A stretch of 64,000 nt of DNA. It comes from Acidobacteriota bacterium. Its GTDB lineage: Bacteria; Acidobacteriota; Terriglobia; Terriglobales; Acidobacteriaceae. The stretch is taken from positions 1,770-65,769 of the forward strand of contig JAJZIJ010000008.1 of NCBI GenBank assembly GCA_021810625.1. The letters are read 5' to 3'. The translations under genes were made by a program, and so were the position numbers. The number at the start of each line of letters is the position of its first letter. The first letter of the stretch is position 1. Below, piece by piece: positions 23,912-38,944 of this stretch. The notes under the pieces are model-generated. The model worked only from the letters and a program-made list of their open reading frames with translations. It was not told where the DNA came from and did not search any database.

Positions 23912-24446
23912 GAGTATCTCTCCCTGATGTCAGTTGGATATGAACCGTGCCTTCCATGAAAATAGGAATATCGGCCATACCCTTACAACCGCTGCATTTA
24001 CAAGAGATGCAATGGGATGAACAATGGGTAGCTCGTCACGATCTTATATTTATCTCCCTACCTGCCCAGGTTTATGCGAAGCCCAACGAAGATTCTCAAC
24101 AGTGCAGAAAACCACCGAATGCCAACGCCGCATCCACTGTTAGCAGGTGGCGTGTAACGAGCAGAAACTCCCAATGCTGCGACCATGCGAAGCATTGGGT
24201 TGCGCCCCGTGTTGAGGGGGTGAGGAATCGAGGATTTTTCGTGATTTCCTCCTCTGAATTTTCCGGCGAAGGAGAATCGCGTCAGCCGGAACCTCACCCG
24301 CTTTCCATGCATTCGCTCCTAAATTTCCTGCGTTTCCCATGTATCGCCCCCCCCGTTCTGGCCCCCTGTTCTGGAATGTTTGCTTCTTCCCCGGCGCACT
24401 CCCCTGCCTTGTTACCCCCGGAGATGCTAAAATCGAGGCATACGCT
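23912..24446. other. Intergenic region between the DUF3309 gene and hpnJ
   Basis: About 535 bp without a convincing gene. It holds a perfect 9-bp inverted repeat, CCCAATGCT (24170-24178) and AGCATTGGG (24191-24199), with a 12-base loop. A weaker 7-bp repeat, TTCCGGC (24261-24267) and GCCGGAA (24285-24291), follows. The open frames here lack good ribosome sites. The stretch should contain the hpnJ promoter and that of the minus-strand DUF3309 gene; no clear -35/-10 pair was identified. Confidence 0.55.
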
Positions 24447-25931
24447 ATGCCCTTGAAAACGCTTTTCCTCAACCCGCCCTCTTTCAAAAACTTTGACGGT
24501 GGCGCCAGTTCGCGCTGGCCTGCCACACGCGAGATTGAGTCCTACTGGTATCCGGTCTGGCTCGCCTATCCGGCAGGCTTGCTGGAAGGCTCCCGACTGC
24601 TCGACGCGCCGCCGCATCACGTCTCGGCGGAAGAGACGATTGAAATCGCCAAGCAGTATGAATTTCTGGTGCTCTTCACCAGCACTCCCGGCTGGACGGG
24701 TGACCACAAGCTGGCCGAGGCCATCAAAGAGGCCAATCCCTCCATCAAGATTGCGTTTGTCGGCCCGCCAGTAACCACCTCCCCGGATCGCGCTCTGAAC
24801 GAGTGCCCCGTGATTGATTTCGTCTGCCGCCGCGAGTTTGACTTCTCCGTGGTGGAGTACGCCAACGGCAAGCCGCTTGATGAGATTCTTGGCATCAGCT
24901 ATCGCAAGAACGGACAAATCGCGCACAATCCCGACCGCCCGCAAATTGAAAATCTCGACCGCCCGAATCTGCCCTGGGTTACGGATATTTATGCGCGCGA
25001 CATGGACGTAACGCGCTACAACGTTCCCTTCCTGCTGCACCCGTATGTCTCGCTTTACTCCACTCGCGGCTGTCCGGCGCAATGCACCTTCTGCCTGTGG
25101 CCGCAGACCCTGAGCGGTCATGCGTGGCGCAAGCGCTCCACCGATGATGTGGCCGCGGAGATGGCCCACGCCAAGGAACTCTTTCCGCATGTGAAGGAGT
25201 ACTTCTTCGACGACGACACATTCAACATCCAAAAAGCGCGCACCATCGAACTATGCGAGAAGCTGAAGCCGCTGAAGCTGACCTGGTCTTGCACCTCGCG
25301 TGTCACCACTGACCGTGAGACGCTCAAGGCCATGCGCGAGGCTGGCTGTCGCCTGCTCATCGTCGGCTTTGAATCTGGCGACCCGCAAATTCTGAAGAAC
25401 ATCAAAAAGGGCGCCACCGTCGAGCGCGCGCGCGACTTTACCCGCGATTGTCACGATCTCGGCCTGACCATCCACGGCGATTTTATCCTCGGCCTGCCCG
25501 GAGAGACCAAGGAGTCCATTCGCAACACCATCAACTTCGCCAAGTCGCTGGATGTCGAAACCATTCAGGTGTCGATTGCGCACGCCTACCCTGGCACGGA
25601 GTTCCACGACTTTGCCAAAGCAAATGGCTTCATCATCAACGGCGGACAAATGGTCGATGAAGGTGGCCACCAACTCGCGCACGTCGAATACCCCAACCTG
25701 CCAACGGAATACGTACTCGAAATGGTGCATCGCTTTTACGACGAGTATTACTTCCGCCCCAAAGCTGCATGGCGCGTGGTGAGCAAGGCCATCATCAATC
25801 GCGACCTGGGCCGCCTCTACGTGGAGGCGAAGGCATTTATGAAGCTGCGCGCGCAACGCAATCGCGCCGTGGCCCAAACCAAGCGCGACAAAGCCGCCAC
25901 CGCCGCAGAAGCTGCACGGGCTGGGGCGTAG
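24447..25931 (+). CDS. hpnJ: Hopanoid biosynthesis B12-binding radical SAM protein HpnJ
   Basis: A 494-residue protein matching HpnJ throughout. The N-terminus MPLKTLFLNPPSFKNFDGG is followed by a cobalamin-binding-like domain (~1-170). The radical SAM core has CPAQCTFC near residues 210-217, a CX3CX2C cluster ligand set, and a C-terminal domain (YPNLPTEYVLEMVHRFYDEYYF) typical of the family. HpnJ is required for the cyclitol-ether side chain of composite bacteriohopanepolyols in other bacteria. ATG 24447 is preferred over the upstream frame (from 24339) because family similarity begins there and GAGG precedes it. No hpnI or hpnK lies in the window. Confidence 0.93.
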   Translation: MPLKTLFLNPPSFKNFDGGASSRWPATREIESYWYPVWLAYPAGLLEGSRLLDAPPHHVSAEETIEIAKQYEFLVLFTSTPGWTGDHKLAEAIKEANPSIKIAFVGPPVTTSPDRALNECPVIDFVCRREFDFSVVEYANGKPLDEILGISYRKNGQIAHNPDRPQIENLDRPNLPWVTDIYARDMDVTRYNVPFLLHPYVSLYSTRGCPAQCTFCLWPQTLSGHAWRKRSTDDVAAEMAHAKELFPHVKEYFFDDDTFNIQKARTIELCEKLKPLKLTWSCTSRVTTDRETLKAMREAGCRLLIVGFESGDPQILKNIKKGATVERARDFTRDCHDLGLTIHGDFILGLPGETKESIRNTINFAKSLDVETIQVSIAHAYPGTEFHDFAKANGFIINGGQMVDEGGHQLAHVEYPNLPTEYVLEMVHRFYDEYYFRPKAAWRVVSKAIINRDLGRLYVEAKAFMKLRAQRNRAVAQTKRDKAATAAEAARAGA

Positions 25932-26035: not shown

Positions 26036-26497
26036 ATGCAATCGACTCTGACCTTTCGACGTTATCTGGTTTTGATCGCCATCATGCTCACCGCCTCCTT
26101 TGGCGATACCTTTCTGAGCATTGGCATGAGACAGATGGGGCCAGTCTCGATCCATCATCTCTCCAGCCTGCTGCTCGCCATGCGCACTCCCTGGGTAATT
26201 GCCGGAGTCGCACTGCTGCTGGGCTTCTTTGCCGCCTACCTGACGGCGCTCTCCTGGGCCGACCTGACCTTTGTGCTGCCCGCCACATCCTTCGGCTACG
26301 TGCTCATCGCGCTGCTGTCGAAATTCTGGCTGCATGAACCAGTCTCTTTGGCGCGTTGGACTGGCATCCTTCTCATCACGCTGGGCGTTGGCTTTGTAAC
26401 ACGCGGGCCATCGTACACTCCGCACACGCCGATGGAAACTGCCACGCCCGTACTTGCAGGACAGGCTGCCGCGCAGGCAGAAGGAGACCTGCCGTGA
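26036..26497 (+). CDS. Half-size DMT/EamA-like membrane protein, subunit 1
   Basis: A 153-residue protein with four hydrophobic segments and a polar C-terminal tail. FGDTFLSIGMRQMG follows the first helix, and ALSWADLTFVLPATSFGYV lies near residues 78-96. Both are half-transporter features of the drug/metabolite transporter superfamily (EamA, SMR, ArnE/F-like). The next gene is a clear paralogue (AGDVSLAGAMRHIGD, ALSWADVSLVAPASA) overlapping by four bases, so a heterodimer is likely. ATG 26036 is used; TTG 26000 would add 12 residues. Lying between hpnJ and hpnE suggests, but does not prove, a role in moving a hopanoid or its headgroup precursor. Confidence 0.75.
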   Translation: MQSTLTFRRYLVLIAIMLTASFGDTFLSIGMRQMGPVSIHHLSSLLLAMRTPWVIAGVALLLGFFAAYLTALSWADLTFVLPATSFGYVLIALLSKFWLHEPVSLARWTGILLITLGVGFVTRGPSYTPHTPMETATPVLAGQAAAQAEGDLP

Positions 26498-26883
26498 AGC
26501 ATGTTGCCGATCCCAGCGTCTGGTTGATGATTGGAACCATCGTGGTGCTGGCCACGGCTGGCGATGTTTCCCTCGCGGGAGCCATGCGCCATATTGGCGA
26601 CTTCGACGACATTCGCGCTCGCTCCGGCTTGCGTGGCGCGATCCGCGCCGTGTTGGGGAATCTGCGTTTTCTCTTTGGCGTGCTCTGTATGGCGCTCAGC
26701 TTTTTCGCGCTGCTCTTCGCCCTGAGCTGGGCGGATGTCAGTCTGGTTGCGCCCGCTTCTGCTGCGCTCACCTTTGTAACCAACGCCTTCGCCGCCAAAT
26801 GGATTTTGAAGGAAAATGTGGATCGGCGACGCTGGTTTGCCGCTGTCTGCGTCTGCCTGGGCGTGTTGCTCATCTCGCGCTGA
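26494..26883 (+). CDS. Half-size DMT/EamA-like membrane protein, subunit 2
   Basis: A 129-residue paralogue of the preceding gene with four hydrophobic segments. The start GTG 26494 overlaps the upstream stop as GTGA, giving tight coupling. Shared landmarks are GD..L.GAMRHIG near the start, LFALSWADVSLVAPASA in the third helix and a final CVCLGVLLISR helix. Unequal, coupled half-transporters of this size resemble ArnE/ArnF, which flip an undecaprenyl-linked sugar across the inner membrane. A lipid-linked substrate is therefore attractive here, but this is inference. The gene ends 21 bp from the convergent hpnE. Confidence 0.75.
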   Translation: MKHVADPSVWLMIGTIVVLATAGDVSLAGAMRHIGDFDDIRARSGLRGAIRAVLGNLRFLFGVLCMALSFFALLFALSWADVSLVAPASAALTFVTNAFAAKWILKENVDRRRWFAAVCVCLGVLLISR

Positions 26884-26904: not shown

Positions 26905-28350
26905 CTACCCAAATATCCGCATGAATCCCTGCACGGGTAGATCGGCTTGCAGAAATTTTTGCTCGTGGTTTTGGTTGCGCGTATATGCCTCCGCTGCCAA
27001 ATATCCGCTGCGAACCGCGCCTTCCATCGTTGCAGGCCAGCCTGTCGCCGTCCAATCTCCGGCCAGAAAAATCCCAGGCCATGCCGTGATCGGGCCGGGA
27101 CGATGGGCATCCAATCCCGGCGTAACGCAAAAGGTTGCGCGCACTTCCTTTACAACTGTGGCCTTCAACAAATTTGCCTGCCGCGCTGCGGGAAAAAATT
27201 CCGCAAGCTCACGCAGCGCCAGATCAAGGATCTCCTGCCGCTGCATCGGCACCAGCGTCTTCGATGCGCTCACCACCAGTTCGAGATAATCCCCCGCAGC
27301 GTTGGCGCGTGTCTGTGGCTGTAAGAGCGACTTGTTGAACATCCACTGAATTGTCGTGTCCAGCAAAACCGCGTGCGGCAATTCTGTAATTTTTCGATCA
27401 AACCAAAGATGAATCCCCGTGATGGGCGAATGTTCAAAGTGTGCAAGCTGATCCGGCAATTTGTTCTGCGCACCCGAAGCCAGCGCTGGCAACATCGGCA
27501 ACAATTTCTGCGTCGCTTCAAAGGGTAGCGCCAGAATAACGGCACCTGCGTCGATGCGGATTCCCTGCCCCATCACCGTCCAGCGATGACTTTCTGGATG
27601 AAAAGAAAATCCTTCGGCGCTGACGCGCAGCAGCACCTCGCCACCACGCGCGCGAATATATGCCACGGCGTGATGGTACAGTTCGCTTAATGGAATGGTT
27701 GGAAATCCCATGCGCCCTGCGATCGGCGAACTCATAAACGAACTGCGAATCACCATTCCGGCATAACGAACGGACAAGCGATCCAGATCATCATTCAGCG
27801 CGCTGTGCATCAAGGGCTTCCAAAAGCGCTCCACCGATGCCCGCGTCTGTCCATGCCGCTCCAGCCAATGCGCGAAATCTTCCGCAGTGTCTTCCGGCAC
27901 GCCTTGCAGCAGCGCCATCATGGCGCGGGCAATCGCCAGCTTATCCGACAGCGTGAAAGCCCGCGCCGCAAGAAAGGAAAAGGTATTGTGCAGCGGAGCG
28001 GGCAAAGCTCCCGGATATAAATCGCTGCGCCGTCCGCCCGGCTCAAGAAATGTAAAACGATCAAACCACTGGATGCGATTCTCAACGCCCAGCCTGCGAT
28101 ACAGGTCGATGAGATTGGTGCAACTGCCCAACAGCAAATGCTGACAGTTATCAACGATCTCCCCTGTGCCGGGATGCTCGTAGGAAGAGGCGCGCCCGCC
28201 AACGTAAGGACGGCGCTCCAGCAATTGCACACGATAGCCCGCATCGGCCAACGCGCAGGCGGAGGCAAGGCCCGCAAGCCCGCCGCCAACAACCACGACA
28301 TCGCACACAGCGCGGTCTGCATCGCGTGGCGCGAAATCCGTTGCTTCCAT
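26905..28350 (-). CDS. hpnE: Hydroxysqualene dehydroxylase HpnE
   Basis: A 481-residue FAD-dependent oxidoreductase of the squalene-associated desaturase family. It reduces hydroxysqualene to squalene, the last step of the HpnCDE route. VVVVGGGLAGLASACALADAG at the N-terminus is the dinucleotide-binding fold, LLERRPYVGGRASSYEH follows, and the C-terminal FAD motif is GIFLAGDWTATGWPATMEGAVRSG. ATG 28350 is used. TTG 28362, with GGAG five bases upstream, is a serious alternative that would add four residues. It is the last gene of the minus-strand hopanoid operon, 36 bp after hpnD. Confidence 0.93.
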   Translation of the reverse strand: MEATDFAPRDADRAVCDVVVVGGGLAGLASACALADAGYRVQLLERRPYVGGRASSYEHPGTGEIVDNCQHLLLGSCTNLIDLYRRLGVENRIQWFDRFTFLEPGGRRSDLYPGALPAPLHNTFSFLAARAFTLSDKLAIARAMMALLQGVPEDTAEDFAHWLERHGQTRASVERFWKPLMHSALNDDLDRLSVRYAGMVIRSSFMSSPIAGRMGFPTIPLSELYHHAVAYIRARGGEVLLRVSAEGFSFHPESHRWTVMGQGIRIDAGAVILALPFEATQKLLPMLPALASGAQNKLPDQLAHFEHSPITGIHLWFDRKITELPHAVLLDTTIQWMFNKSLLQPQTRANAAGDYLELVVSASKTLVPMQRQEILDLALRELAEFFPAARQANLLKATVVKEVRATFCVTPGLDAHRPGPITAWPGIFLAGDWTATGWPATMEGAVRSGYLAAEAYTRNQNHEQKFLQADLPVQGFMRIFG

Positions 28351-28386
28351 CGCAGTCGTCAATCCATCTCCGTTCGATGTAAAAAT

Positions 28387-29355
28387 CTATGCGCGCGACA
28401 ACAATCGCGCGCGCAAAACCATCCACAGACCACGCAGCAGGATGGCGATCTTTTCATGTGTTGGAACTTTTATTTTTCCAGAAAAAACCTGGTATCGCCG
28501 CGCCGTAATATGCTCCAATAAACGCCGGTAGACAGCCACCAGAACCCAGAGCGCTGGCCGACTGTCCGGTGAAATCATTGGCAGCAGCGCCTCAGCAGCG
28601 GCGTAATACTTGCGTGCGCGTTGGGCCTCCATCTCTAAAAGCGAATGCGCCGCCAGTGACATCGGCGCATCGCCCCGCATCGCCGCCACTTCCTCCGCCG
28701 TCAGGCCGTAGCGACGCAAATCCTCCAGCGGAAGATATACGCGCCCACGTTCCGCATCCTCCCGAACATCGCGCAGAATGTTGGTGAGTTGAAACGCAAT
28801 CCCCGTTTCTTCCGCGAGTTTTTCCGCGCGCGCATCCTGATATCCGAAAACGCGAATGCAGACCAGACCCACGACAGAGGCAACGTAATAACAATACCGA
28901 TACAAGTCATCAAAGGTGCGATAGACAAGAAAGGGATGGCCGCTGGAAGCGTCTTCTGTCTCTTGCGGAAGCTCCGCGCCCACTCCGCGCCCGTTCTCCG
29001 GCTGCGGCATCAGATCCATCATCGTGCCCTGCACAAGCTGGTCGAGCAACTCGTTCGAGATTGCAAAACGCTGCTGCACATCGCGCACGGCAAGGAACAC
29101 AGGGTTTTCCGTTACAGCGCCAGCAGCAACGCGGTGCCACTCCTCCAACCACGCCGCCGCCCGTTGACGGCGCTCCTCCAGTGGAATACTCTCGTCATCC
29201 GCAAGATCATCCGCATGGCGCATGAACGCATACATCGCGCACATGGCAGATCGTTTGTGCCGGGGCAAAACAAGAAATGCATAATAAAAATTTTTGGCTT
29301 CGCTGCGGGCGATCTTCCTGCAAACCGTATACGACTGTTCAATGGAAAGACTCAC
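28387..29355 (-). CDS. hpnD: Presqualene diphosphate synthase HpnD
   Basis: A 322-residue trans-isoprenyl diphosphate synthase of the squalene/phytoene synthase family. It condenses two farnesyl-PP to presqualene-PP. The first acidic motif is HADDLADDE (~47-55) and the second is NILRDVREDAERGRVYLP (~195-212); both bind Mg-diphosphate. The start GTG 29355 overlaps the hpnC stop by four bases, so the two squalene-forming enzymes are translationally coupled. Pairing with HpnC and HpnE is diagnostic of the NADPH-independent squalene route. Confidence 0.95.
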   Translation of the reverse strand: MSLSIEQSYTVCRKIARSEAKNFYYAFLVLPRHKRSAMCAMYAFMRHADDLADDESIPLEERRQRAAAWLEEWHRVAAGAVTENPVFLAVRDVQQRFAISNELLDQLVQGTMMDLMPQPENGRGVGAELPQETEDASSGHPFLVYRTFDDLYRYCYYVASVVGLVCIRVFGYQDARAEKLAEETGIAFQLTNILRDVREDAERGRVYLPLEDLRRYGLTAEEVAAMRGDAPMSLAAHSLLEMEAQRARKYYAAAEALLPMISPDSRPALWVLVAVYRRLLEHITARRYQVFSGKIKVPTHEKIAILLRGLWMVLRARLLSRA

Positions 29356-30305
29356 TCTGCTCTCCTCGTCGTCATCTTCTTCGCGAGGGCGAGCAACAGC
29401 AAACCCAGTTTGCGCGGCTTGCTGATTGCGGGCCGCGCGCGCAACACATCGTAATGCTGCCGTTCAATGGCGCGTAGAATCTCCATTCCGCCGCGACTGA
29501 ATAGATCAATGTCGATGGCCAGTTCAGCATCCAGCCGCCCGATCAGCGGCATTCCCTTGCGGAGAAGATCGCGCGTATATTCCACTTCATATTGCATCAG
29601 CGCGCGAAATTCCGTGGTGCAGCGGCGCTCTCGAATTTGTTCTTCGCTCACTCCAAACCGCCGCATATCTGCCTGCGGCAGATAGATGCGATTCTTCTGG
29701 AAATCCACGCTGACATCCTGCCAGAAATTTGCCAGTTGCAGCGCGGTACAGGTGAAGTCCGAGAGCGCGAAGCGTTCCGGGTCGCGATAGCCGCTTGCAT
29801 AAAGCACCAGATGCCCCACAGGATTGGCCGAGTTTTGGCAGTAGCCCAACACATCCTGCATCGTCTCGTAGCGCTGCACTGTTTGATCCTGGCGAAAAGC
29901 GATCAGAAGATTTGCAAATGGCTCTTTGGGAATTTCGCATCGCCGTATCGTCTCCGCGAGCGCGACAAAGACCGGATGACGCATCTCTCCGCGATAGCAG
30001 GCATCCAGTTCCGCTCCCCAGAAATCGAGCAGCGCAAGCGATTGTTGCGTGTCTCCCACTTCATCGCCAAGATCGTCTGAGATGCGGCAATAGGCGTAGA
30101 TGCTTTGAAAGTGCGGACGCAAACGCTCCGGCAAAAACCATGAGGCGACATGGAAATTCTCATAGTGCGATTCCGTGAGCCGACGACAAAATAGCTGCGC
30201 CTCTTCCAGCGTCGGAACTTGAGCTGGCATTCGATAGAGCGCGGGAAGTTTTTTCCATCCAGCCTCCAGTGCCGCAACGTCGATTGATGTTGTTTGGATT
30301 GTCAT
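29352..30305 (-). CDS. hpnC: Hydroxysqualene synthase HpnC
   Basis: A 317-residue squalene/phytoene-synthase family member. In the HpnCDE route it converts presqualene-PP to hydroxysqualene. Motifs are YCRISDDLGDEVGD (~71-84) and LANFWQDVSVDFQKNRIYLP, plus an N-terminal SHYENFHVASWFLP segment typical of HpnC. It starts 8 bp after the zinc dehydrogenase stop and overlaps hpnD by four bases. Confidence 0.95.
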   Translation of the reverse strand: MTIQTTSIDVAALEAGWKKLPALYRMPAQVPTLEEAQLFCRRLTESHYENFHVASWFLPERLRPHFQSIYAYCRISDDLGDEVGDTQQSLALLDFWGAELDACYRGEMRHPVFVALAETIRRCEIPKEPFANLLIAFRQDQTVQRYETMQDVLGYCQNSANPVGHLVLYASGYRDPERFALSDFTCTALQLANFWQDVSVDFQKNRIYLPQADMRRFGVSEEQIRERRCTTEFRALMQYEVEYTRDLLRKGMPLIGRLDAELAIDIDLFSRGGMEILRAIERQHYDVLRARPAISKPRKLGLLLLALAKKMTTRRAE

Positions 30306-30313
30306 TGTTTTTC

Positions 30314-31375
30314 TCAGGGAAGAATCACCGTTTTTATGTCCGCGCTCGACGGATGCGTCCCGCGATCCATCATGCGCGCAAAGACCGGAACAATGTCATC
30401 AAGAGACGCTCGTCCGGTGAGAAAAGCAGCACTCGAAAATTTGCCGCTGGCAATCCACTCAAATGCGCTCCGGCACACCGAGGGTCGATGATGAAAACTC
30501 GCGCGCAAGGTGAGATTGTTGTAATGCAGCCGATTGGTATCCAGCGCCACTGTGGTTCCCGCTGCACACCCGCCAAAAAAATTGACCACGCCGCCTTTGC
30601 AAACCATATCCACGGCCCATTGCCAGGTCTGCGGCATGGCCACAGCCTCAATCACCGCATTCGCGCCGCGATGCCCCGGCGTCAACGCGCGCACTGCGGC
30701 GACCACATCTTCCACTACGCCTGCATCCACAACATGACTGGCCCCCAATGCCTTCGCCGTTTTCGCCTGCGCATCTCGTCTAACGACAGCGATAACATTG
30801 GCTCCCATCTGATGCGCGAGATGAATGAACATCAGGCCAATCGGCCCGGCTCCGATCACAACGATTTGATTTCCCGGCTGCACGCCGGTCTCTTCCATGC
30901 CATGCACCACGCAGGCCAGCGGCTCGGTCATGGCCGCGTGTTCCAGCGGGACAGACTCCGGCACATGAAGCATGTTCTTTGCCACGATGCGCGCCGGAAT
31001 GCGAATATACTCCGCATACGCTCCGTTGTTGAAGAGCAGATCGTCGCAAAGATTCTCCTGCCCGCGACGGCAAAAATAGCAAGCGCCGCACGGCGCGGAG
31101 TTCAACGCAACCACGCGGTCGCCTTCGTGGAAATCAGCAACACCCGCGCCCACCATCGCAACGTGTCCGGAAAGCTCGTGTCCAAAGGGAATGGGCGGCT
31201 GCAACATTTTTGCGTGATAGCCGCGACGGTAGACCTTCAAGTCCGTCCCGCAGGTGAGCGCGGCGCGCACGCGCACAATCACCTCACCCTCCGCTGGCTC
31301 TGGAATGGGAAGGCGCTCGATGCGCAGGTCTTCTTTGCCGTAGAGGACAGCCGCTTTCATGGTTTGCGTCATCAT
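30314..31375 (-). CDS. Zinc-dependent medium-chain alcohol dehydrogenase 1, within hopanoid operon
   Basis: A 353-residue MDR-family dehydrogenase. CGTDLK (~42) and GHELSG (~65) supply catalytic zinc ligands. CGACYFCRRGQENLC (~95-109) holds the four structural-zinc cysteines. The Rossmann motif is VVIGAGPIGLMF. The loop after the second Rossmann strand reads VVRRDAQ, with Arg where NAD-specific enzymes have Asp, so NADP(H) preference is possible. It resembles the sorbitol/threonine dehydrogenase branch, which oxidises or reduces polyols and sugar-like substrates. It is 24 bp after dehydrogenase 2 and 8 bp before hpnC, clearly inside the operon. No role in hopanoid synthesis is established; a side-chain reductase is proposed in the findings. 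Confidence 0.85.
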   Translation of the reverse strand: MMTQTMKAAVLYGKEDLRIERLPIPEPAEGEVIVRVRAALTCGTDLKVYRRGYHAKMLQPPIPFGHELSGHVAMVGAGVADFHEGDRVVALNSAPCGACYFCRRGQENLCDDLLFNNGAYAEYIRIPARIVAKNMLHVPESVPLEHAAMTEPLACVVHGMEETGVQPGNQIVVIGAGPIGLMFIHLAHQMGANVIAVVRRDAQAKTAKALGASHVVDAGVVEDVVAAVRALTPGHRGANAVIEAVAMPQTWQWAVDMVCKGGVVNFFGGCAAGTTVALDTNRLHYNNLTLRASFHHRPSVCRSAFEWIASGKFSSAAFLTGRASLDDIVPVFARMMDRGTHPSSADIKTVILP

Positions 31376-31399
31376 CTCAATGCTTCTATTTTCGCAGAG

Positions 31400-32530
31400 C
31401 TAGGCCGGATTGGGTTGAATCACGATTTTTAGCGAATCCGGCCTGGGTTGCGACGCAAATTGAATGGCCTCCGCAGCCTGCTCCAGCGAGAAGCGATGCG
31501 AGATCAGCGGAGTCAAATCAAAGCCGGAATGATAGCCCTGCAATACTTGCTGCACGCCTTCGTCCTGAATTTCAACCGAGGCGCTGTACGAGCCAAGCAG
31601 AGATTTTTCGTCCATGCAGACTGCTGCCGGATCGATTCCGGCCTCGCCATGCTGCGTCTGCGCAAAGAGAAGTACACGCCCTCCCGGACGAGCCGCGTCC
31701 ATTGCGGTACGAATCAACGCATTGCCCGCCACGGCAAGAATCACGGCATCCGCGCCACGACCATCGGAATGCTCTTTGGCGGCAGCAACAACATCTTCGC
31801 AGCTCGCGTCGATGGAGCGCGTCAATCCAAAACCCGCCGCAACCCGATGCCGCGAGGAATACAGATCAGAAGTAAGAATCTTTGCGCCTGTCCGTTGCGC
31901 CAGCGCAGCCAGAAGAATTCCAATGGGGCCTTGGCCGATGACAAGCACCGTTTCATCCGAGGCAAGATGTAAATTTCGCACCGCTTTCAGGCATGTATTG
32001 ACCGGCTCAATAAAGGATGCCTGCTCAAAAGGAACATCGTCGGGAATGCGAATCATGCCGCGCTGCACAATCCAATCCATCACGCGGATGTACTCGGCAA
32101 AGCCGCCGCCAGCAGGCTCGAACCCCGCCGTGCAGCCAACGCGCTTGTACACGGAGCACTGCGCGAAGGTCTTCTTGTGGCAGTAATAACATTCGCCGCA
32201 GGGAATATGATGGAAGGCCATCACGCGATCCCCAACCTGCCAGCCCTGCACGCCAGCGCCCAGCGCAACGATGGTTCCAGCCATCTCATGCCCAAAGATG
32301 CGCGGCGCGGTATGCGATCCTGTATGAATTTTTTTCAGATCGGTACCACAGATGCCGCAGGTGTGGATGCGCACCAGCACCTCGCCCTCGCTGATCGCCG
32401 GAACCGGAATAGTTTCCACGCGCACATCGTTGATGCCGCGATAAACTGCCGCGCGCATGGTGGACGGCACCGTAAAGGATTGCGCCTCGATTCCAGAGAA
32501 TGCCGCTGCCGCCATTGATCGTTTATCCAT
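31400..32530 (-). CDS. Zinc-dependent medium-chain alcohol dehydrogenase 2, within hopanoid operon
   Basis: A 376-residue MDR-family dehydrogenase with complete zinc sites: CGICGTDLKKIH and GHEMAG (catalytic) and CGECYYCHKKTFAQC (structural). The cofactor fold is VIGQGPIGILLAALAQ, followed by LTSDLYSSRH, where the Asp suggests NAD(H). This differs from the Arg of its neighbour, so the two enzymes may use different cofactors. ATG 32530 overlaps the hpnG stop by eight bases and is preceded by GGAACGAA; ATG 32545 is less well placed. The overlap with hpnG argues for co-translation with the enzyme that produces the ribosyl intermediate. Confidence 0.85.
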   Translation of the reverse strand: MDKRSMAAAAFSGIEAQSFTVPSTMRAAVYRGINDVRVETIPVPAISEGEVLVRIHTCGICGTDLKKIHTGSHTAPRIFGHEMAGTIVALGAGVQGWQVGDRVMAFHHIPCGECYYCHKKTFAQCSVYKRVGCTAGFEPAGGGFAEYIRVMDWIVQRGMIRIPDDVPFEQASFIEPVNTCLKAVRNLHLASDETVLVIGQGPIGILLAALAQRTGAKILTSDLYSSRHRVAAGFGLTRSIDASCEDVVAAAKEHSDGRGADAVILAVAGNALIRTAMDAARPGGRVLLFAQTQHGEAGIDPAAVCMDEKSLLGSYSASVEIQDEGVQQVLQGYHSGFDLTPLISHRFSLEQAAEAIQFASQPRPDSLKIVIQPNPA

Positions 32531-33224
32531 TTTCGTTCGTTCCATGTGTTTGGTATGCCAGTAGAATACGATGCAATTCCTGACAAAGATTTCGCGCCGA
32601 CGCAGATGCGGTTCGCGCCATGCGCATCGTCGCCAGCCACATCCAGGGCCGCAGCGCGACATGCAGGGCAAATGCCTTTTCGCGAATCCATCCATCGTCG
32701 GTGGTAAATGCCTGGAGCAACTCCGGTGGCGCATCCTCGCATTCATCCGAGATGGTCTTGACGGCGGCAAAGGGAATTTTATTTTCTGCCGCCAGGCGCG
32801 CCACTGTGGCTGCTTCCATATCTACATACTCGGCATCGAACTCCACCGCAAGCGCCCGCTTTTCCTGCGCGTTGGCAACCTTGGCTACCGTTACCAACGT
32901 GCCCGTCCCTGCCACCGCCGTAAATTTTTGATTGGTTGCGGCATCCACCACGTAGGCCGGATGATAAATGGAACCAGCGAAAAATTCCGACTTCAAGGCT
33001 CCCGCCCATCCCACGGAAAAAAGGTAGGAAATCGGCCCACGCGCCAGCGCTGCCTGCACGGCAATCTCCGCGCGCGCAGCGCCCATTCCGGCGCAGACCA
33101 CAACCGCGCTATCGTTCGTATACACGAAGATTTTTTTTGCGGGATCGCTCTCCTCCTGCCAGCCGCGAACCAAGCTTGCAATCTCGCGCGGCAGCGCGGC
33201 GATGATGGCGATTCTCGGCTTCAT
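32523..33224 (-). CDS. hpnG: Adenosylhopane nucleosidase/phosphorylase HpnG
   Basis: A 233-residue protein of the purine nucleoside phosphorylase fold. It removes adenine from adenosylhopane to give a ribosylhopane intermediate. Seen features are IAIIAALPREIASLV at the start, CAGMGAARAEIAVQAAL, and the substrate-site segment EYVDMEAATVARLA followed by KTISDEC. ATG 33224 overlaps the hpnA stop as ATGA; the longer frame would run deep into hpnA. Its stop overlaps the following dehydrogenase gene. Confidence 0.92.
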   Translation of the reverse strand: MKPRIAIIAALPREIASLVRGWQEESDPAKKIFVYTNDSAVVVCAGMGAARAEIAVQAALARGPISYLFSVGWAGALKSEFFAGSIYHPAYVVDAATNQKFTAVAGTGTLVTVAKVANAQEKRALAVEFDAEYVDMEAATVARLAAENKIPFAAVKTISDECEDAPPELLQAFTTDDGWIREKAFALHVALRPWMWLATMRMARTASASARNLCQELHRILLAYQTHGTNENG

Positions 33225-34243
33225 GCGGAAGGAGTATTCCCTTGCGGCGCGTATCCGTTCACATATCCGTTGGCGCGAAACCAATCAATGGCGGAGTGAA
33301 GCGCGGGGTCGATGGGAAGCACCTGGTAGCCCAGCTCGCGCTCCGCTTTGGCCGAGGAAGCGAACATTTTCTTTTTACCCATGCGCACGGCTTCAACCGT
33401 GGCGCGTGGTTCGCGACCCAGGATGCGTCCGGTAATCCATTCGTCAAAAAAAGCAAAGGTCATGGCCACGGAGTGCGGCACTTGCATCGTCGGCGAAGGC
33501 AGTCCAGTGATGGCCGCCATGCGATCCAGAATCTGCTTGAGCGTCAGATTTTCTCCGCCCAAAATGTAGCGTTCCCCCGACCGTCCACGCTCCAGCGCCG
33601 CGACGTGCGCCTGCGCGATGGCCTTTACATCCACCAAATTCAGACCGGTATCGACATACGCCGGAAATTTTCGATTCAAAAAATCCACCACAATACGCCC
33701 GGTCGGCGTTGGCTTGGCATCGTCCGAACCAATCGGCGTGGTTGGATTCAGAATGATGACTGGCTGACCACTGCGAGCGGCAGCAACGGCCTCTTGCTCG
33801 GCCATAAACTTGGAGCGTTTATAGTGGCCAATCATATCGGCCAGCGCAACCGGGGTCTCCTCGTCAACAATGGTGCCGTCGGCGCGAAAGCCCATCGTGG
33901 CCACGCTTGATGTGTAGACCACGCGCCGCACGCCAGCCTCATGCGCAAGCTGCAATAGCTCTCGCGTGCCTGTCACGTTCGCGGCATACATCGCATCGGG
34001 ATCGCGCACCCACAGACGATAATCAGCGGCAACGTGGACGAGCGCTTCACAATCGGCCAGCGCCGCCGCCAGCGTGGAAGGCTGTCGCAGATCACCCACC
34101 ACCAACTCCGCATGGAGAGATTGCAGATGTTCCGCGCGACTGGCTCTACGAACGAGCAGGCGAAGCTGCGCGCCGTTGGCGCTGAGCGCGCGCGCAACGT
34201 GCGTGCCCACAAATCCAGTCGCGCCTGTCAGGAAGATTTTCAT
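33221..34243 (-). CDS. hpnA: Hopanoid-associated sugar epimerase HpnA
   Basis: A 340-residue extended short-chain dehydrogenase/epimerase. The NAD(P)-binding motif TGATGFVGTHVARAL opens the protein, and the catalytic YXXXK is YKRSK near residue 140, preceded by VVYTSSVATMG. HpnA proteins occur in most hopanoid clusters, but their reaction is not firmly established. The name means association rather than proven sugar epimerisation. It is coupled to hpnG by a four-base overlap and lies 32 bp after the unknown 141-aa gene. Confidence 0.9.
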   Translation of the reverse strand: MKIFLTGATGFVGTHVARALSANGAQLRLLVRRASRAEHLQSLHAELVVGDLRQPSTLAAALADCEALVHVAADYRLWVRDPDAMYAANVTGTRELLQLAHEAGVRRVVYTSSVATMGFRADGTIVDEETPVALADMIGHYKRSKFMAEQEAVAAARSGQPVIILNPTTPIGSDDAKPTPTGRIVVDFLNRKFPAYVDTGLNLVDVKAIAQAHVAALERGRSGERYILGGENLTLKQILDRMAAITGLPSPTMQVPHSVAMTFAFFDEWITGRILGREPRATVEAVRMGKKKMFASSAKAERELGYQVLPIDPALHSAIDWFRANGYVNGYAPQGNTPSA

Positions 34244-34275: not shown

Positions 34276-34701
34276 CTAGTCGAGCGCCTCGGCCTCAATC
34301 CCAATGTTCGTTTCGCCCGCAGATTTCTTTTCCCAGTATTTGCGAAGCCACGCCTCCCAGCTTTTTCCGGCAGCCGTGTCGCGCCCGCTAAAGGCCAGCG
34401 CGGCAATCTCCGAATATGGGACGACCATCTTCTCATCCGAATCCTTCGGAATCACACGCACGCAGGATTGCTGAAGCGTTGGCGCGCTGCGGCGGTCGAA
34501 GACGTAGCCTTCGATTTTACTGCCCGCCTTGAGCGTGATGGTCACATCCCCGCGAAAATCGAACGCCTTTTCCATCGCGTCGCAAATCTCTTCCTGCGTG
34601 GCCAATGGCGGTATCCAGCCTTCAAGGTTTTCGTGCTCAAACCCAAGGGCGACTTCCTGTTCAGATATCGGCGGGTTCTGCAATTCGGAAGTTGAACTCA
34701 T
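34276..34701 (-). CDS. Uncharacterised 141-aa protein between hpnH and hpnA
   Basis: A soluble acidic protein with no signal or membrane segment and no family that I recognise. The N-terminus is polar. The middle (AFDFRGDVTITLKAGSKIEGYVFDR) looks like a small beta-barrel, reminiscent of Sm-like or SH3-like folds with a G..I.GYV.D turn. The rest (VRVIPKDSDEKMVVPYSEIAALAFSGRDTAAGKSWEAWLRKYW) continues in strands plus a helix. ATG 34701 overlaps the hpnH stop as ATGA, so it is translationally coupled to the adenosyl transferase. This suggests a structural or regulatory partner in side-chain formation, which is inference. Confidence 0.75.
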   Translation of the reverse strand: MSSTSELQNPPISEQEVALGFEHENLEGWIPPLATQEEICDAMEKAFDFRGDVTITLKAGSKIEGYVFDRRSAPTLQQSCVRVIPKDSDEKMVVPYSEIAALAFSGRDTAAGKSWEAWLRKYWEKKSAGETNIGIEAEALD

Positions 34702-35825
34702 ACGCGTTGCTCCTCCAACTCCGCTGCGGGAGTGGTAATTTGAACCAGCGGATTGTGCGCGTGAACGGGCGCGACAGGTTGACTCAAAAGATCCAGCGCG
34801 CCACGGTCGGGATAGCGGTTGAAGATTGCCGCCTTCGCCATCGCCAGAATGCCGCTCAACGAGCCAAATCCTGCATCAACGGTGGAGGGTTCATATCCGC
34901 AACTCACCATGCAGTTGGCGCACTTTGGATTTCCGGATTCCGTGCCGTAATTCGACCACTCGGTCGTCTGCAACAATTCTTCAAATGTGTCGGCATAGCC
35001 ATCCTGCAACAGGTAACAGGGCTTTTGCCAGCCAAAAACGTTGTATGCGGGCGAACCCCACGGCGTGCATTGGTAGTCGCGCTTGCCCATTAAAAATTCC
35101 AGAAAAAGCGGCGACATATTGAACTTCCAGTTCGACTTGCGATTCGACAAGATGGCGCGAAAGAGACGACGCGAACGGGCGCGCCCCATAAAATGCTTCT
35201 GGTCGGGAGCTTTGTCGTAGGTATATCCCGGCGAAAGAACAATTCCCTCGACACCCATCGACATCACTTCATCAAAGAAGGCCCGCACACTGTTCGGATC
35301 GGCGCCATCGAAGAGCGTGGTGTTGGTGGTCACGCGAAATCCGCGCTGCACCGCCACGCGAATGCTTTCGACGGCGATGTCATAGCCGCCCTCGCGACAG
35401 ACAGAAAAATCATGATGCTCGCGCTGTCCATCCAGGTGAACGGAGAACGTGAGATATTTGCTAGGCTTGAACAGATCGATCTTTTCTTTGAGCAGCAGCG
35501 CATTCGTACACATGTAGACGTACTTTTTGCGCGCGACCAGGCCAGCGACAATCTCGCCAATCTGCGGATGCAGCAGCGGCTCGCCACCGGGAATGGAGAC
35601 CATCGGCGCGCCGCATTCCTCCGCCGCGTGGAAACACTCTTCCGGGGTCAACTGCTTCTTCAGAATATGCGCCGGATACTGAATTTTTCCGCAGCCCGCG
35701 CAGGCCAGATTGCAGCGAAACAGCGGCTCCAGCATCAGCACCAGCGGATACTGTTTGCGTCCATTCCATCGCTGCTTGAGCACGTAGGTTGCTACGGTCC
35801 ACATTTGTGAGATCGGCACAGCCAT
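34698..35825 (-). CDS. hpnH: Adenosyl-hopene transferase HpnH (radical SAM)
   Basis: A 375-residue radical SAM enzyme that adds the 5'-deoxyadenosyl group to diploptene, forming adenosylhopane and the first C35 intermediate. The cluster motif CNLACAGC (CX3CX2C) is at residues ~38-45. PGGEPLLHPQ follows, and the C-terminal half has the Cys-rich CANCMVSCGYEPS segment typical of the SPASM-like end of HpnH. The start ATG 35825 has GGGAGA eight bases upstream and lies 34 bp after shc, in the order cyclase then side-chain enzyme. Confidence 0.95.
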   Translation of the reverse strand: MAVPISQMWTVATYVLKQRWNGRKQYPLVLMLEPLFRCNLACAGCGKIQYPAHILKKQLTPEECFHAAEECGAPMVSIPGGEPLLHPQIGEIVAGLVARKKYVYMCTNALLLKEKIDLFKPSKYLTFSVHLDGQREHHDFSVCREGGYDIAVESIRVAVQRGFRVTTNTTLFDGADPNSVRAFFDEVMSMGVEGIVLSPGYTYDKAPDQKHFMGRARSRRLFRAILSNRKSNWKFNMSPLFLEFLMGKRDYQCTPWGSPAYNVFGWQKPCYLLQDGYADTFEELLQTTEWSNYGTESGNPKCANCMVSCGYEPSTVDAGFGSLSGILAMAKAAIFNRYPDRGALDLLSQPVAPVHAHNPLVQITTPAAELEEQRV

Positions 35826-35859: not shown

Positions 35860-37857
35860 CTAGTTCGATGCCGCGTTTGATGTCGCCGCTATCGGCTGCA
35901 TCGCCCGCCGATACGTTGTGAGCGCGAACAGCGGAAAGTAGTCCCGATACATGTGGTACGCCAGATAGAAGACCCGCGGGAACCCAGTTCCAGTGTAATC
36001 TTTCTCATTCCAGGAGCCATCGGAGTTCTGATGTTCGAGCAGCCAGCGAACTCCCTTGGCCACCGAGTCGCTCCGCGTATCGCCTGCGGACAGCAATCCA
36101 AGAATTGCCCATGCCGTCTGCGATGGCGTGCTAACGCCGATCCCCCGTTGCACGGGATCGTCATAACTAACGCAGCTTTCGCCCCAGCCGCCATCGGCAT
36201 TCTGCACGCAGCGAATCCACTCCGCCGCCTGCTGAATCTGCGGCTCATGGTTCCAGACCCCCATCGCTTCCAATCCGCGCAACACCAGAAAGGTTCCGTA
36301 AATATAGTTGACACCCCAGCGCCCAAACCAGCTTCCATCCGGCTCCTGCTCGCGGAAGAGAAACTGAATGGCGCGTTCCACTCGCGCATCCTTCCGCGTG
36401 TAACCGTGGCTGGCCAGCATCTCCAGAACACGCCCGGTGATATCGACCGTTGGCGGATCGAGCATCGCGTTATGATCGGCAAACGGGATGTACTGAAAGA
36501 TCATCTTGCTATTGTCTTTGTCGAAGCTGGCCCAACCGCCGTTCTTGCACTGCATGGCAAAGACCCACTGAATGGCCCGCTGCTCAACCTCATGCTGGTA
36601 GCGCTCCCTGGGATTATCCACCTTGTTCAACGCCAGCAATACCTGGGCCGAATCGTCCACGTCAGGATAAAATTCGTTGTTGAACTCGAAGTACCAACCA
36701 CCAGGCTCAACCTTCGGAACCTTCACCGCCCAATCGCCCTTTTGCCGCACTTCTTTGGCCAGCATCCAGTCCGCAGCCTTCAGCAAGCGAGGATCATTCT
36801 TTGACACGCCAGACTCGCCGAGCGCGAAAACGGCGTAGGCCGTATCCCAGATCGGAGACATGCAGGGCTGCATACGGAAGGTGGCAGGAGCGTCTCCGCT
36901 GCCCGGCTCCTCAATGCCCAGCTTTTCAAACTCGTCCATTGCGCGAATCATCTGCGGATCGTCGAGCGAGTAACCGAGACAGCGCAGCGCAATGATGGAA
37001 TTCAACATGGCCGGATAAATTGCGCCCAGCCCATCGCTTTTTTCAAAGCGCGCGAGCATCCAGCGCTCGGCCTTCTTTAGCGCCATTGCCCGCAGCGGGC
37101 GTATATGCACGCGCTCGAACGCATGGGTCAGGCGATCCAGAAAAAGAAAGAAATTGCGCCAGCTAAAAATATGCCGATCCCAATGCAGGTGCAGATTGGA
37201 CTTCTCGCGGCCCCCCAGAAAAAGCTCGTCGATGCCCTGCTCCGGCTGAATTTTCTTGAACGGCTTTTTTGCGTAGGCAATGGAGAACGGCACCAGAATG
37301 GCCCGCGACCAGGAAGAAATTTCGTACAAATTGAAGTAAAACCACTTCGGAAACAGCACAATCTCCGGCGGAATGGCCGGAGCCGCGTTGTAGTCATACT
37401 GGCCGAAGAAACAGAGATAGAGCTTGGTGTAGGTGTTGACCTGCGTGACGCCGCCATGCGCCAGAATCCATGCGCGCGCGCGGGTCAGCACCGGATGATC
37501 CTGCGACCAGCCCATCAGCTTGAAGGCAAAATATGCCTTGACGGAAGCGCTGATATTCGACGGCCCGCCGTGAAAAATGCTCCAGCCGCCGTCGGCGTTC
37601 TGATGCCGGAGTATTTCCTGCACGGCGCGCTGCATCCGTCCCGCATCGCCGGTGCCCAGCAACGTATGCACCATGATGTAGTCGGATTCCAGCGTCGTGT
37701 CGGCTTCCAGTTCTCCGCACCAGTATCCATCCGGGTGCTGCAAGGAAAACAGGAAATCGCGGGAGGCGGCAATTGCGCGCTCCACCTGATCTAAGCTGGC
37801 ATCCAGCCTGCCATACTTCACAGTCGCCGACTGGCTGCCTTGATGAGATTGATTCAT
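35860..37857 (-). CDS. shc: Squalene-hopene cyclase
   Basis: A 665-residue membrane-associated triterpene cyclase that turns squalene into hopene or hopanol. The protonating motif DVDDSA is present, and several QW repeats (QNADGGWSIF, CKNGGWASFD, QEPDGSWFGRWG, QNADGGWGES, QNSDGSWNE) are spread through the two alpha-barrels. Its length is normal for bacterial SHC (hpnF). ATG 37857 is chosen because the longer frame (to 37983) enters ispH and encodes no family-like residues. Placement directly after ispH links precursor supply to cyclisation. Confidence 0.97.
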   Translation of the reverse strand: MNQSHQGSQSATVKYGRLDASLDQVERAIAASRDFLFSLQHPDGYWCGELEADTTLESDYIMVHTLLGTGDAGRMQRAVQEILRHQNADGGWSIFHGGPSNISASVKAYFAFKLMGWSQDHPVLTRARAWILAHGGVTQVNTYTKLYLCFFGQYDYNAAPAIPPEIVLFPKWFYFNLYEISSWSRAILVPFSIAYAKKPFKKIQPEQGIDELFLGGREKSNLHLHWDRHIFSWRNFFLFLDRLTHAFERVHIRPLRAMALKKAERWMLARFEKSDGLGAIYPAMLNSIIALRCLGYSLDDPQMIRAMDEFEKLGIEEPGSGDAPATFRMQPCMSPIWDTAYAVFALGESGVSKNDPRLLKAADWMLAKEVRQKGDWAVKVPKVEPGGWYFEFNNEFYPDVDDSAQVLLALNKVDNPRERYQHEVEQRAIQWVFAMQCKNGGWASFDKDNSKMIFQYIPFADHNAMLDPPTVDITGRVLEMLASHGYTRKDARVERAIQFLFREQEPDGSWFGRWGVNYIYGTFLVLRGLEAMGVWNHEPQIQQAAEWIRCVQNADGGWGESCVSYDDPVQRGIGVSTPSQTAWAILGLLSAGDTRSDSVAKGVRWLLEHQNSDGSWNEKDYTGTGFPRVFYLAYHMYRDYFPLFALTTYRRAMQPIAATSNAASN

Positions 37858-37912
37858 GGTTCTGACCCGAAACTCTCCTGCGAACTTGTGGCGTTCCGTG
37901 TAACAGAAACAG

Positions 37913-38944
37913 CTATTGCGCCACCGGAACCGGCTGCGACGGCGCAGCGGCAATAGCCTGCACAATCTCCGGCGGCAAGCCAAACCTTACATTCTCCGGC
38001 ATGACTTCGACTTCTTCCAGCGTGTCAAATCCGTGATTGCTCAGGTAGTTGATGACATCCTGCACCAGAACCTCTGGCGCGGAAGCTCCTGCTGTAATGG
38101 CGACCGTCTGCACGTTCTCCAGCCACTCCGGCAGAATGGCGTCGGAGTTGTCGATCAGATAGGCGCGGGTGTCCAGATTGCGCGAGACCTCCACCAAACG
38201 GTTGGAGTTGGAACTATTGTTCGACCCCACCACCAACACCAAATCGGCCTGATGCGCCACGTTTTTCACGGCCACCTGGCGATTTTCCGTTGCGTAGCAG
38301 ATGTCCTGCGAGTGCGGCCCGACAATGTTCGGATACTTCTCTTTGAGCGCGTGGATAATGTCGCGGGCTTCGTCCAGGCTGAGCGTCGTCTGCGTCAGAT
38401 AGGCCACGCGGTTGGGGTCTGGCACTTCGAGTGCCGCAACTTCGGCAACATTGGAGACCACCTGCGTCACGTCTGGAGCCTCGCCAAGCGTGCCTTCAAT
38501 CTCATCGTGGTCGCGATGACCAATCAGAATCAGCGAATATCCCTGCTGGGCAAACTTGACGGCTTCGACGTGAACCTTGGTCACCAGCGGGCAGGTGGCA
38601 TCAATCACTTTGAGTCCGCGCAGCTTGCTGTGTTCGCGGACGGCGGGCGAAACTCCATGCGCGCTGTAGATGACGCGCATTCCCGCCGGAACCTCGTCAA
38701 TATCATCGACAAAGATGGCTCCTTTTTCCGCTAATTCATTCACAACAAACCGATTGTGGACGATCTCCTTGCGCACATAGATGGGCGCGCCAAAGGTTTC
38801 CAGCGCAATTTTGACAACATCAATGGCCCGCACAACGCCAGCGCAAAAGCCACGGGGTTTCAGCAACAGAACACGCCGATGGCCGCCCGGAACAACAGAG
38901 GCACCAGCGACATCGGAGGAGGAATGCGAAGCGTGGTTAGTCAC
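37913..38944 (-). CDS. ispH: 4-hydroxy-3-methylbut-2-enyl diphosphate reductase
   Basis: A 343-residue [4Fe-4S] enzyme of the last MEP-pathway step, producing IPP and DMAPP. The three cluster cysteines are in PRGFCAGVVRA (~34), DATCPLV (~118) and QDICYAT (~213). The substrate histidines in IVHNRFVV and LIGHRDHDE and the SNNSSNSNRLVEV segment are present. It appears to be the first gene of the hopanoid operon, so isoprenoid supply and hopanoid synthesis would be coexpressed. The start is GTG 38944. There is no spaced ribosome site: a G-run directly abuts the codon, and a TATACT hexamer ends seven bases upstream. Confidence 0.95.
   Translation of the reverse strand: MTNHASHSSSDVAGASVVPGGHRRVLLLKPRGFCAGVVRAIDVVKIALETFGAPIYVRKEIVHNRFVVNELAEKGAIFVDDIDEVPAGMRVIYSAHGVSPAVREHSKLRGLKVIDATCPLVTKVHVEAVKFAQQGYSLILIGHRDHDEIEGTLGEAPDVTQVVSNVAEVAALEVPDPNRVAYLTQTTLSLDEARDIIHALKEKYPNIVGPHSQDICYATENRQVAVKNVAHQADLVLVVGSNNSSNSNRLVEVSRNLDTRAYLIDNSDAILPEWLENVQTVAITAGASAPEVLVQDVINYLSNHGFDTLEEVEVMPENVRFGLPPEIVQAIAAAPSQPVPVAQ

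Follow-up and report, generated by a model that had tools for sequence, protein, structure and literature searches.

A tandem pair of half-size DMT proteins next to hpnJ in Acidobacteriota: a putative flippase for glycosylated hopanoids

The locus and its gene pair

The window, the whole stretch of 64,000 nucleotides of an Acidobacteriaceae genome that we analysed, carries two small membrane protein genes amid hopanoid genes (Table 1). DMT1 and DMT2 are paralogous: their pairwise alignment covers 122 columns with 34% identity (E 6e-13), and a profile-profile comparison matches them with 99.9% probability. Helices of transmembrane (TM) length span residues 7-34, 52-71, 74-98 and 105-122 in the DMT1 model, and 7-34, 57-79, 82-104 and 111-128 in the DMT2 model, which has an extra loop helix at 37-55.

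A sequence-only reading of this DNA had described two four-helix paralogues that overlap as GTGA between hpnJ and hpnE. Frames, alignment, models and neighbours all agree with this description. The same reading had assigned two motifs to both proteins. ALSWAD is common to both, whereas GD..L..GMR holds for TM1 of DMT1 only; the DMT2 form is GD..L..AMR. The pair is not a chance arrangement, as 34 of the 37 genomes of the window's family have an orthologous tandem pair. The predicted frames overlap in 57 of 77 related pairs, extracted from the best 80 of 520 loci.

Table 1. Positions in the window of the gene pair and the hopanoid genes around it (profile scores in bits).
Feature	Position	Strand	Description	Basis
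hpnJ	24447..25931	+	cobalamin-binding radical SAM enzyme	TIGR03471, 750 (cut-off 577.6)
DMT1	26036..26497	+	first half-size EamA/DMT protein, 153 aa, 4 predicted TM helices and charged C-terminal tail	ATG start
GTGA overlap	26494..26497	+	DMT2 start inside DMT1 stop	sequence
DMT2	26494..26883	+	second half-size EamA/DMT protein, 129 aa, predicted SMR-like fold	GTG start
hpnE	26905..28362	-	hydroxysqualene dehydroxylase, convergent with the pair	TIGR03467, 495 (cut-off 283)
hpnD	28387..29355	-		TIGR03465, 237 in two stretches, below cut-off 278.6
hpnC	29352..30305	-		TIGR03464, 360
hpnG-like	32523..33284	-	phosphorylase	TIGR03468, 83.6, below cut-off 187.1
hpnA	33221..34243	-		TIGR03466, 493
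hpnH	34698..35825	-		TIGR03470, 540
shc	35860..37983	-	squalene-hopene cyclase	TIGR01507, 760

The open frame of hpnJ begins at 24339; the start at 24447 is our choice. On the other side of the pair, the hopanoid cluster runs from hpnE through hpnD, hpnC, Zn-dependent dehydrogenases, the hpnG-like gene, hpnA, hpnH and shc to ispH, and extends to 38944. The split match of hpnD is apparently due to an inserted stretch near residues 120-144. The two adjoining Zn-dependent dehydrogenase genes (window 30314-32770), between hpnC and the hpnG-like gene, are conserved in the family; such a gene, of unknown function, is called ug2 in PMC5462960.

Family, predicted fold and conserved residues

DMT2 belongs to the EamA family (PF00892, 37.1 bits, curated cut-off 28.2). 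DMT1, at 27.0 bits, falls just below the cut-off and is a clear paralogue of DMT2. A search of the whole genome (2.45 Mb, estimated to be 99% complete) finds EamA at these two places only (E <= 0.001). The SMR profile (PF00893, Multi_Drug_Res) hits neither the genome (E <= 0.001) nor, in an hmmscan, the pair; a search of PDB sequences returned a single match at chance level.

The DMT2 model (pLDDT 78.2) has the four-helix SMR fold. It aligns to Gdx-Clo with Z 11.9 (102 aligned residues, rmsd 2.9) and to EmrE with Z 11.6, and the first unrelated row follows at Z 9.1; its Foldseek E-values are weak (best 0.08). For the DMT1 model (pLDDT 77.9, pTM 0.51), Z is 6.8 to both EmrE (rmsd 4.4) and Gdx-Clo, no higher than for unrelated rows.

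Profiles of the two halves were made from 28 pairs hand-picked from those fetched (A1, A2), and from 46 of 78 (A3) and 44 of 77 (A4) extracted sequences. When five half-size proteins of E. coli are compared, the DMT2 profile prefers ArnE (32.3 bits; next MdtI, 10.7), the DMT1 profile scores MdtJ (20.7) and ArnE (20.3) about equally, and neither matches ArnF.

Proton-coupled SMRs have a central Glu in TM1. The corresponding position 20, equated with E14 of EmrE from the aligned ranges of the structure comparison, is Ala, Ser or Gly in nearly all rows, Thr or Asn in others, and acidic in none that is aligned. At position 24, Asp occupies 24 of the 28 DMT1 rows, and the 27 DMT2 rows without a gap at this point all have Asp or Glu.

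Could the pair then be an SMR-type exporter of small molecules that sits near hpnJ incidentally? The SMR-like fold predicted for DMT2 and the MdtJ score of DMT1 speak for such a pump. The missing PF00893 signature, the missing acidic residue and a linkage to hpnJ that is conserved across many families (see below) make it very improbable. Clear orthology to a small-molecule SMR pump, which would have told against the sequence-only reading, is not seen. The same residue pattern, together with ArnE as the best match of DMT2, fits the resemblance to ArnE/ArnF that this reading had proposed.

The charges of the two halves differ. The K/R bias of DMT2 is negative in 28 of 28 sequences (mean -7.75; -8 in the window), a strong bias to N-out/C-out. 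DMT1 is weakly biased the opposite way (mean +2.4), and the window's own DMT1 has a bias of 0, which is not positive. The signs are opposite in 22 of the 28 pairs, and in 13 of 28 when the DMT1 tail is left out. Such biases fit an antiparallel heterodimer of DMT1 and DMT2, short of proof.

Linkage to hpnJ and the head-group pathway

The pair follows hpnJ across genomes. Among 61 genomes including the window's own, HpnJ scores above its cut-off in 40. Of these 40, 39 have the tandem pair, against 1 of the 21 others (Fisher 7e-14, relatedness ignored). A search with DMT1 matches 54 genomes, but 13 of them, from another family of the order, give no more than a single weak hit. The sole HpnJ genome without the pair (G006) has an hpnJ cut by the contig end (16279-17361 of 17363 bases). 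In 39 of 39 genomes the pair lies downstream of hpnJ on the same strand, even where hpnC, hpnD, hpnE and shc are elsewhere; one of them (G020) is counted on DMT1 alone, where the contig stops.

The pattern extends to the phylum. HpnJ is above its curated cut-off in 60 of 396 genomes, and 57 of the 60 have the pair. All 43 HpnJ genomes of the window's family have it, as do both from a second family of the class and 12 of the 15 from outside the class; these counts ignore relatedness. The cut-off left out a partial hpnJ with the pair (G159), a partial hpnJ without it (G262) and a 347-bit match without it (G088). Pair and hpnJ share contig and strand, with the pair downstream, in 54 of the 57, at a median distance of 183 nt (at most 300 nt in 37, at most 2 kb in 52). 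In the remaining cases, hpnJ lies less than 2 kb from one contig end and DMT1 less than 0.3 kb from another (G249), or the pair follows hpnK on a contig other than that of hpnJ (G320 and G344; loci L099 and L101). Among the best 80 of 520 named loci, a sample that favours close relatives, DMT2 follows DMT1 in 78 and hpnJ precedes the pair in 76. The association with hopanoid genes in other genomes, whose absence would have told against the sequence-only reading, is strong. One lineage has a few loci with an additional gene between hpnJ and DMT1, for a 243-aa protein with no family assignment (L060:10846-11577).

Outside the window's class, the operon holds the whole bacteriohopanetetrol (BHT) cyclitol-ether pathway. 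The gene order is hpnJ-hpnK-DMT1-DMT2-hpnI in five loci (L086, L087, L089, L090, L091), and hpnJ-hpnK-DMT1-DMT2 in L088, where hpnI is absent from the map. These names come from one representative scanned at L086, where neighbouring gene cluster c15 is HpnK (TIGR03473, 295 bits, cut-off 232.6) and c11 is HpnI (TIGR03472, 367 bits, cut-off 310). According to PMC12583986, HpnI makes BHT N-acetylglucosamine, HpnK converts it to BHT glucosamine and HpnJ produces the BHT cyclitol ether.

Genomes of the window's family carry hpnI and an hpnK-like gene at other sites. HpnI is above its cut-off in 40 of 61 relatives; HpnK homologues reach 165-215 bits in 36 of 61 and exceed the cut-off in none of the 61. 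The substrate is therefore uncertain there, and PMC5462960 expresses doubt that these strains produce the cyclitol ether.

Hopene cyclase is present in 39 of the 61 genomes. One genome (G025) has Shc and is without HpnJ, HpnI and the pair; this case suggests a tie of the pair to the head-group pathway and not to hopanoids as such. The hopanoid transport of the sequence-only reading therefore narrows: the pair follows the presence of hpnJ, joined outside the class by hpnK and hpnI, but not that of the cyclase. In another genome (G058), the pair adjoins an HpnI-like gene, and both Shc and HpnJ are missing. The pair family would therefore also serve another lipid.

Where the pair is missing, HpnL takes its place. 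Of six proteobacterial hpnJ loci (L216, L217, L218, L229, L230, L231), every one matches HpnL no further than 8 kb from hpnJ, and none has a match to the pair. Two of these HpnL proteins were scanned (TIGR03476, 328 and 340 bits), and one also matches PF03706 (LPG_synthase_TM, the TM region of lysylphosphatidylglycerol synthase). Across the 396 acidobacterial genomes no HpnL is above the cut-off, and 103 match at E <= 1e-12. All three HpnJ genomes without the pair, from three families, have an HpnL match: G087 at 112 bits, in the order hpnI-hpnJ-hpnK-hpnL (L102); G331 at 152 bits, in the order hpnJ-hpnK-hpnI-hpnL (L103); and G246 with a 107-residue fragment (72 bits) at one contig end and hpnJ-hpnK at another. 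Only 2 of the 57 pair genomes have HpnL (G318, G344), on contigs other than that of hpnJ. The resulting Fisher p of 2.9e-4 rests on three genomes and ignores relatedness. The window's own genome is without HpnL at E <= 1e-12, and neither TIGR03476 nor PF03706 matches DMT1 or DMT2. The pair and HpnL appear to replace each other.

Two further maps show other features near hpnJ. In G331, the open frame of hpnJ has an extra part of about 500 codons ahead of the HpnJ domain (L103:8022-10991), either as a fusion or as a mere open frame. In G262, which lies outside the 60, a membrane-like protein of 281 aa without family stands between hpnJ and hpnI (L118:1102-1947) and is perhaps a third occupant of the slot.

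With HpnJ as the most constant neighbour in the window's family, the pair might be required by HpnJ itself, to anchor it in the membrane or to supply a cofactor or precursor, and move no lipid at all. We regard this as quite improbable. The pair stands with hpnK, apart from hpnJ, in G320 and G344, it occurs without HpnJ in G058, and the HpnJ genomes that lack it have a flippase-type protein, HpnL, instead.

The same pair family also occurs away from hpnJ. A tree of 88 rows, built on few columns, groups the second halves in a single clade (support 99/98). We reject a separate clade of HpnJ-linked pairs; unlinked pairs nest inside, and the cargo has therefore probably changed several times. Some unlinked members lie near HpnI-like, ArnT-like or aminotransferase genes. 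Hence, a flippase for another lipid-linked sugar has to be considered, for example for an undecaprenyl-phosphate sugar of an ArnT-like transferase, with the placement near hpnJ reflecting shared sugar chemistry. Paralogous pairs or single halves do occur near an ArnT-like PMT (L040, L036), an HpnI-like transferase (L041, L114) and a DegT aminotransferase (L110-L112, L117), and HpnI paralogues adjoin an ArnT-like PMT gene in two single-contig genomes (L209:8694-12856, L212:9643-12722), which suggests a non-hopanoid route for lipid-linked sugars. However, the pair accompanies HpnJ almost invariably, and outside the class its operon consists of HpnJ, HpnK and HpnI genes with no PMT gene. We consider this alternative unlikely. 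We read the family as glycolipid flippases whose hpnJ-linked members would serve BHT glycolipids.

Other pairs have no common partner in the eight loci where one neighbour each was scanned (OEP, GATase/Asn_synthase, beta barrel, DUF5666 or nothing). Next to hpnJ-free pairs, again with one neighbour scanned each, we find an outer-membrane efflux protein in G131 and, in G225, a protein assigned to no family (G255 and G268 lay outside the scan). On plasmids, HpnJ matched 20 records; one match at 31% identity, on Lawsonia plasmids, has methyltransferases and glycosyltransferases for neighbours and is not clearly a hopanoid locus, and the two plasmid matches of DMT1 are distant and have no hopanoid context. 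We set both aside. Our literature search found no description of the pair in print. The Leptospirillum hopanoid cluster of PMC12654047 includes an EamA-like protein, with no function given in the text available, and the accessible part of PMC7231039 names neither the pair nor hpnL.

Proposed role and related systems

How hopanoids with bulky heads leave the inner leaflet is an unsettled question, and as late as 2025 hpnL was described as having no established function (PMC12583986). We propose, as somewhat more probable than not, that DMT1 and DMT2 form a heterodimeric flippase of ArnE/ArnF type for BHT-glucosamine or its cyclitol ether, and that they are a non-homologous replacement of HpnL. 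HpnI would put the sugar on BHT, HpnK or an equivalent would take off the acetyl group and HpnJ would turn the sugar into the cyclitol ether; the presumed site of these steps is the cytoplasmic side of the membrane. The pair would then pass the polar head across the inner membrane while the hopane part remains in the bilayer. HpnL, with its LPG_synthase_TM region resembling the MprF flippase, would have the same job in other hpnI-J-K operons. A review of SMRs describes ArnE and ArnF as flippases of glycolipids, in which the central Glu is often missing and which may work by facilitated diffusion (PMC9574504). By analogy, we adopt a mechanism of this type for the pair.

An unrelated flippase-type pair in the slot of HpnL suggests a function for both. 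If this is true, the pair and hpnL should be interchangeable. Acidobacteria are common soil bacteria that make hopanoids, and we predict that they expose BHT-type lipids by their own route.

The onward route may be visible in some genomes. Ahead of hpnJ, genomes of the window's family often encode a MacA/HlyD-type adaptor (TIGR01730), a TPR protein and a TolC-type channel (PF02321), with matches in 52, 49 and 59, respectively, of the best 80 of 520 named loci, on either strand. In many Acidobacteriaceae the three genes lie directly upstream of hpnJ and on its strand (L066:4352-7953 and similar), with no inner-membrane pump gene in most maps. The window's genome has a homologous triplet on another contig (L228:5476-8994, adaptor 42% identical). 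The tie of these genes to hpnJ is an association only. A wider scheme, in which HpnL and the DMT pair are unrelated solutions to flipping a glycosylated hopanoid and the MacA-like, TPR and TolC proteins of Acidobacteriaceae then carry the lipid to the outer membrane without HpnN, is tentative and on balance doubtful.

HpnN itself, an RND transporter of hopanoids, shares the proposed role of hopanoid transport with the pair; it belongs to another family and acts at another step, transport to the outer membrane (PMC12583986). The sequence-only reading had counted the absence of hpnN as an argument. We dropped it; TIGR03480 matched neither the 61 genomes (E <= 1e-30) nor any control genome.

Among paired SMRs, EbrAB and MdtIJ are like the pair in their coupled half-size genes and in the opposite charge bias of many pairs (see PMC9574504). 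Unlike them, the pair has neither the central Glu nor their Pfam family signature. HpnL is likewise a membrane protein of hpnI-J-K operons, but it comes from an unrelated family and is one protein of about 350 aa instead of two of 129-153 aa.

A close parallel is ArnE/ArnF of E. coli, the flippase for undecaprenyl-phosphate aminoarabinose and a glycolipid subtype of the SMRs. Both systems consist of two tiny four-helix proteins from adjoining genes, with no acidic residue at the central Glu position, and the glycosyltransferase ArnC and deformylase ArnD of the ArnE/ArnF pathway are comparable with the setting of the pair. The likeness is uneven: among the five E. coli proteins compared, ArnE ranks first for DMT2 and about level with MdtJ for DMT1, and ArnF is no match. 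In contrast to ArnE/ArnF, the pair lies in no arn operon; its neighbours are hpn genes of the hpnI/J/K set, and its presumed cargo would be a triterpenoid glycolipid rather than undecaprenyl phosphate.
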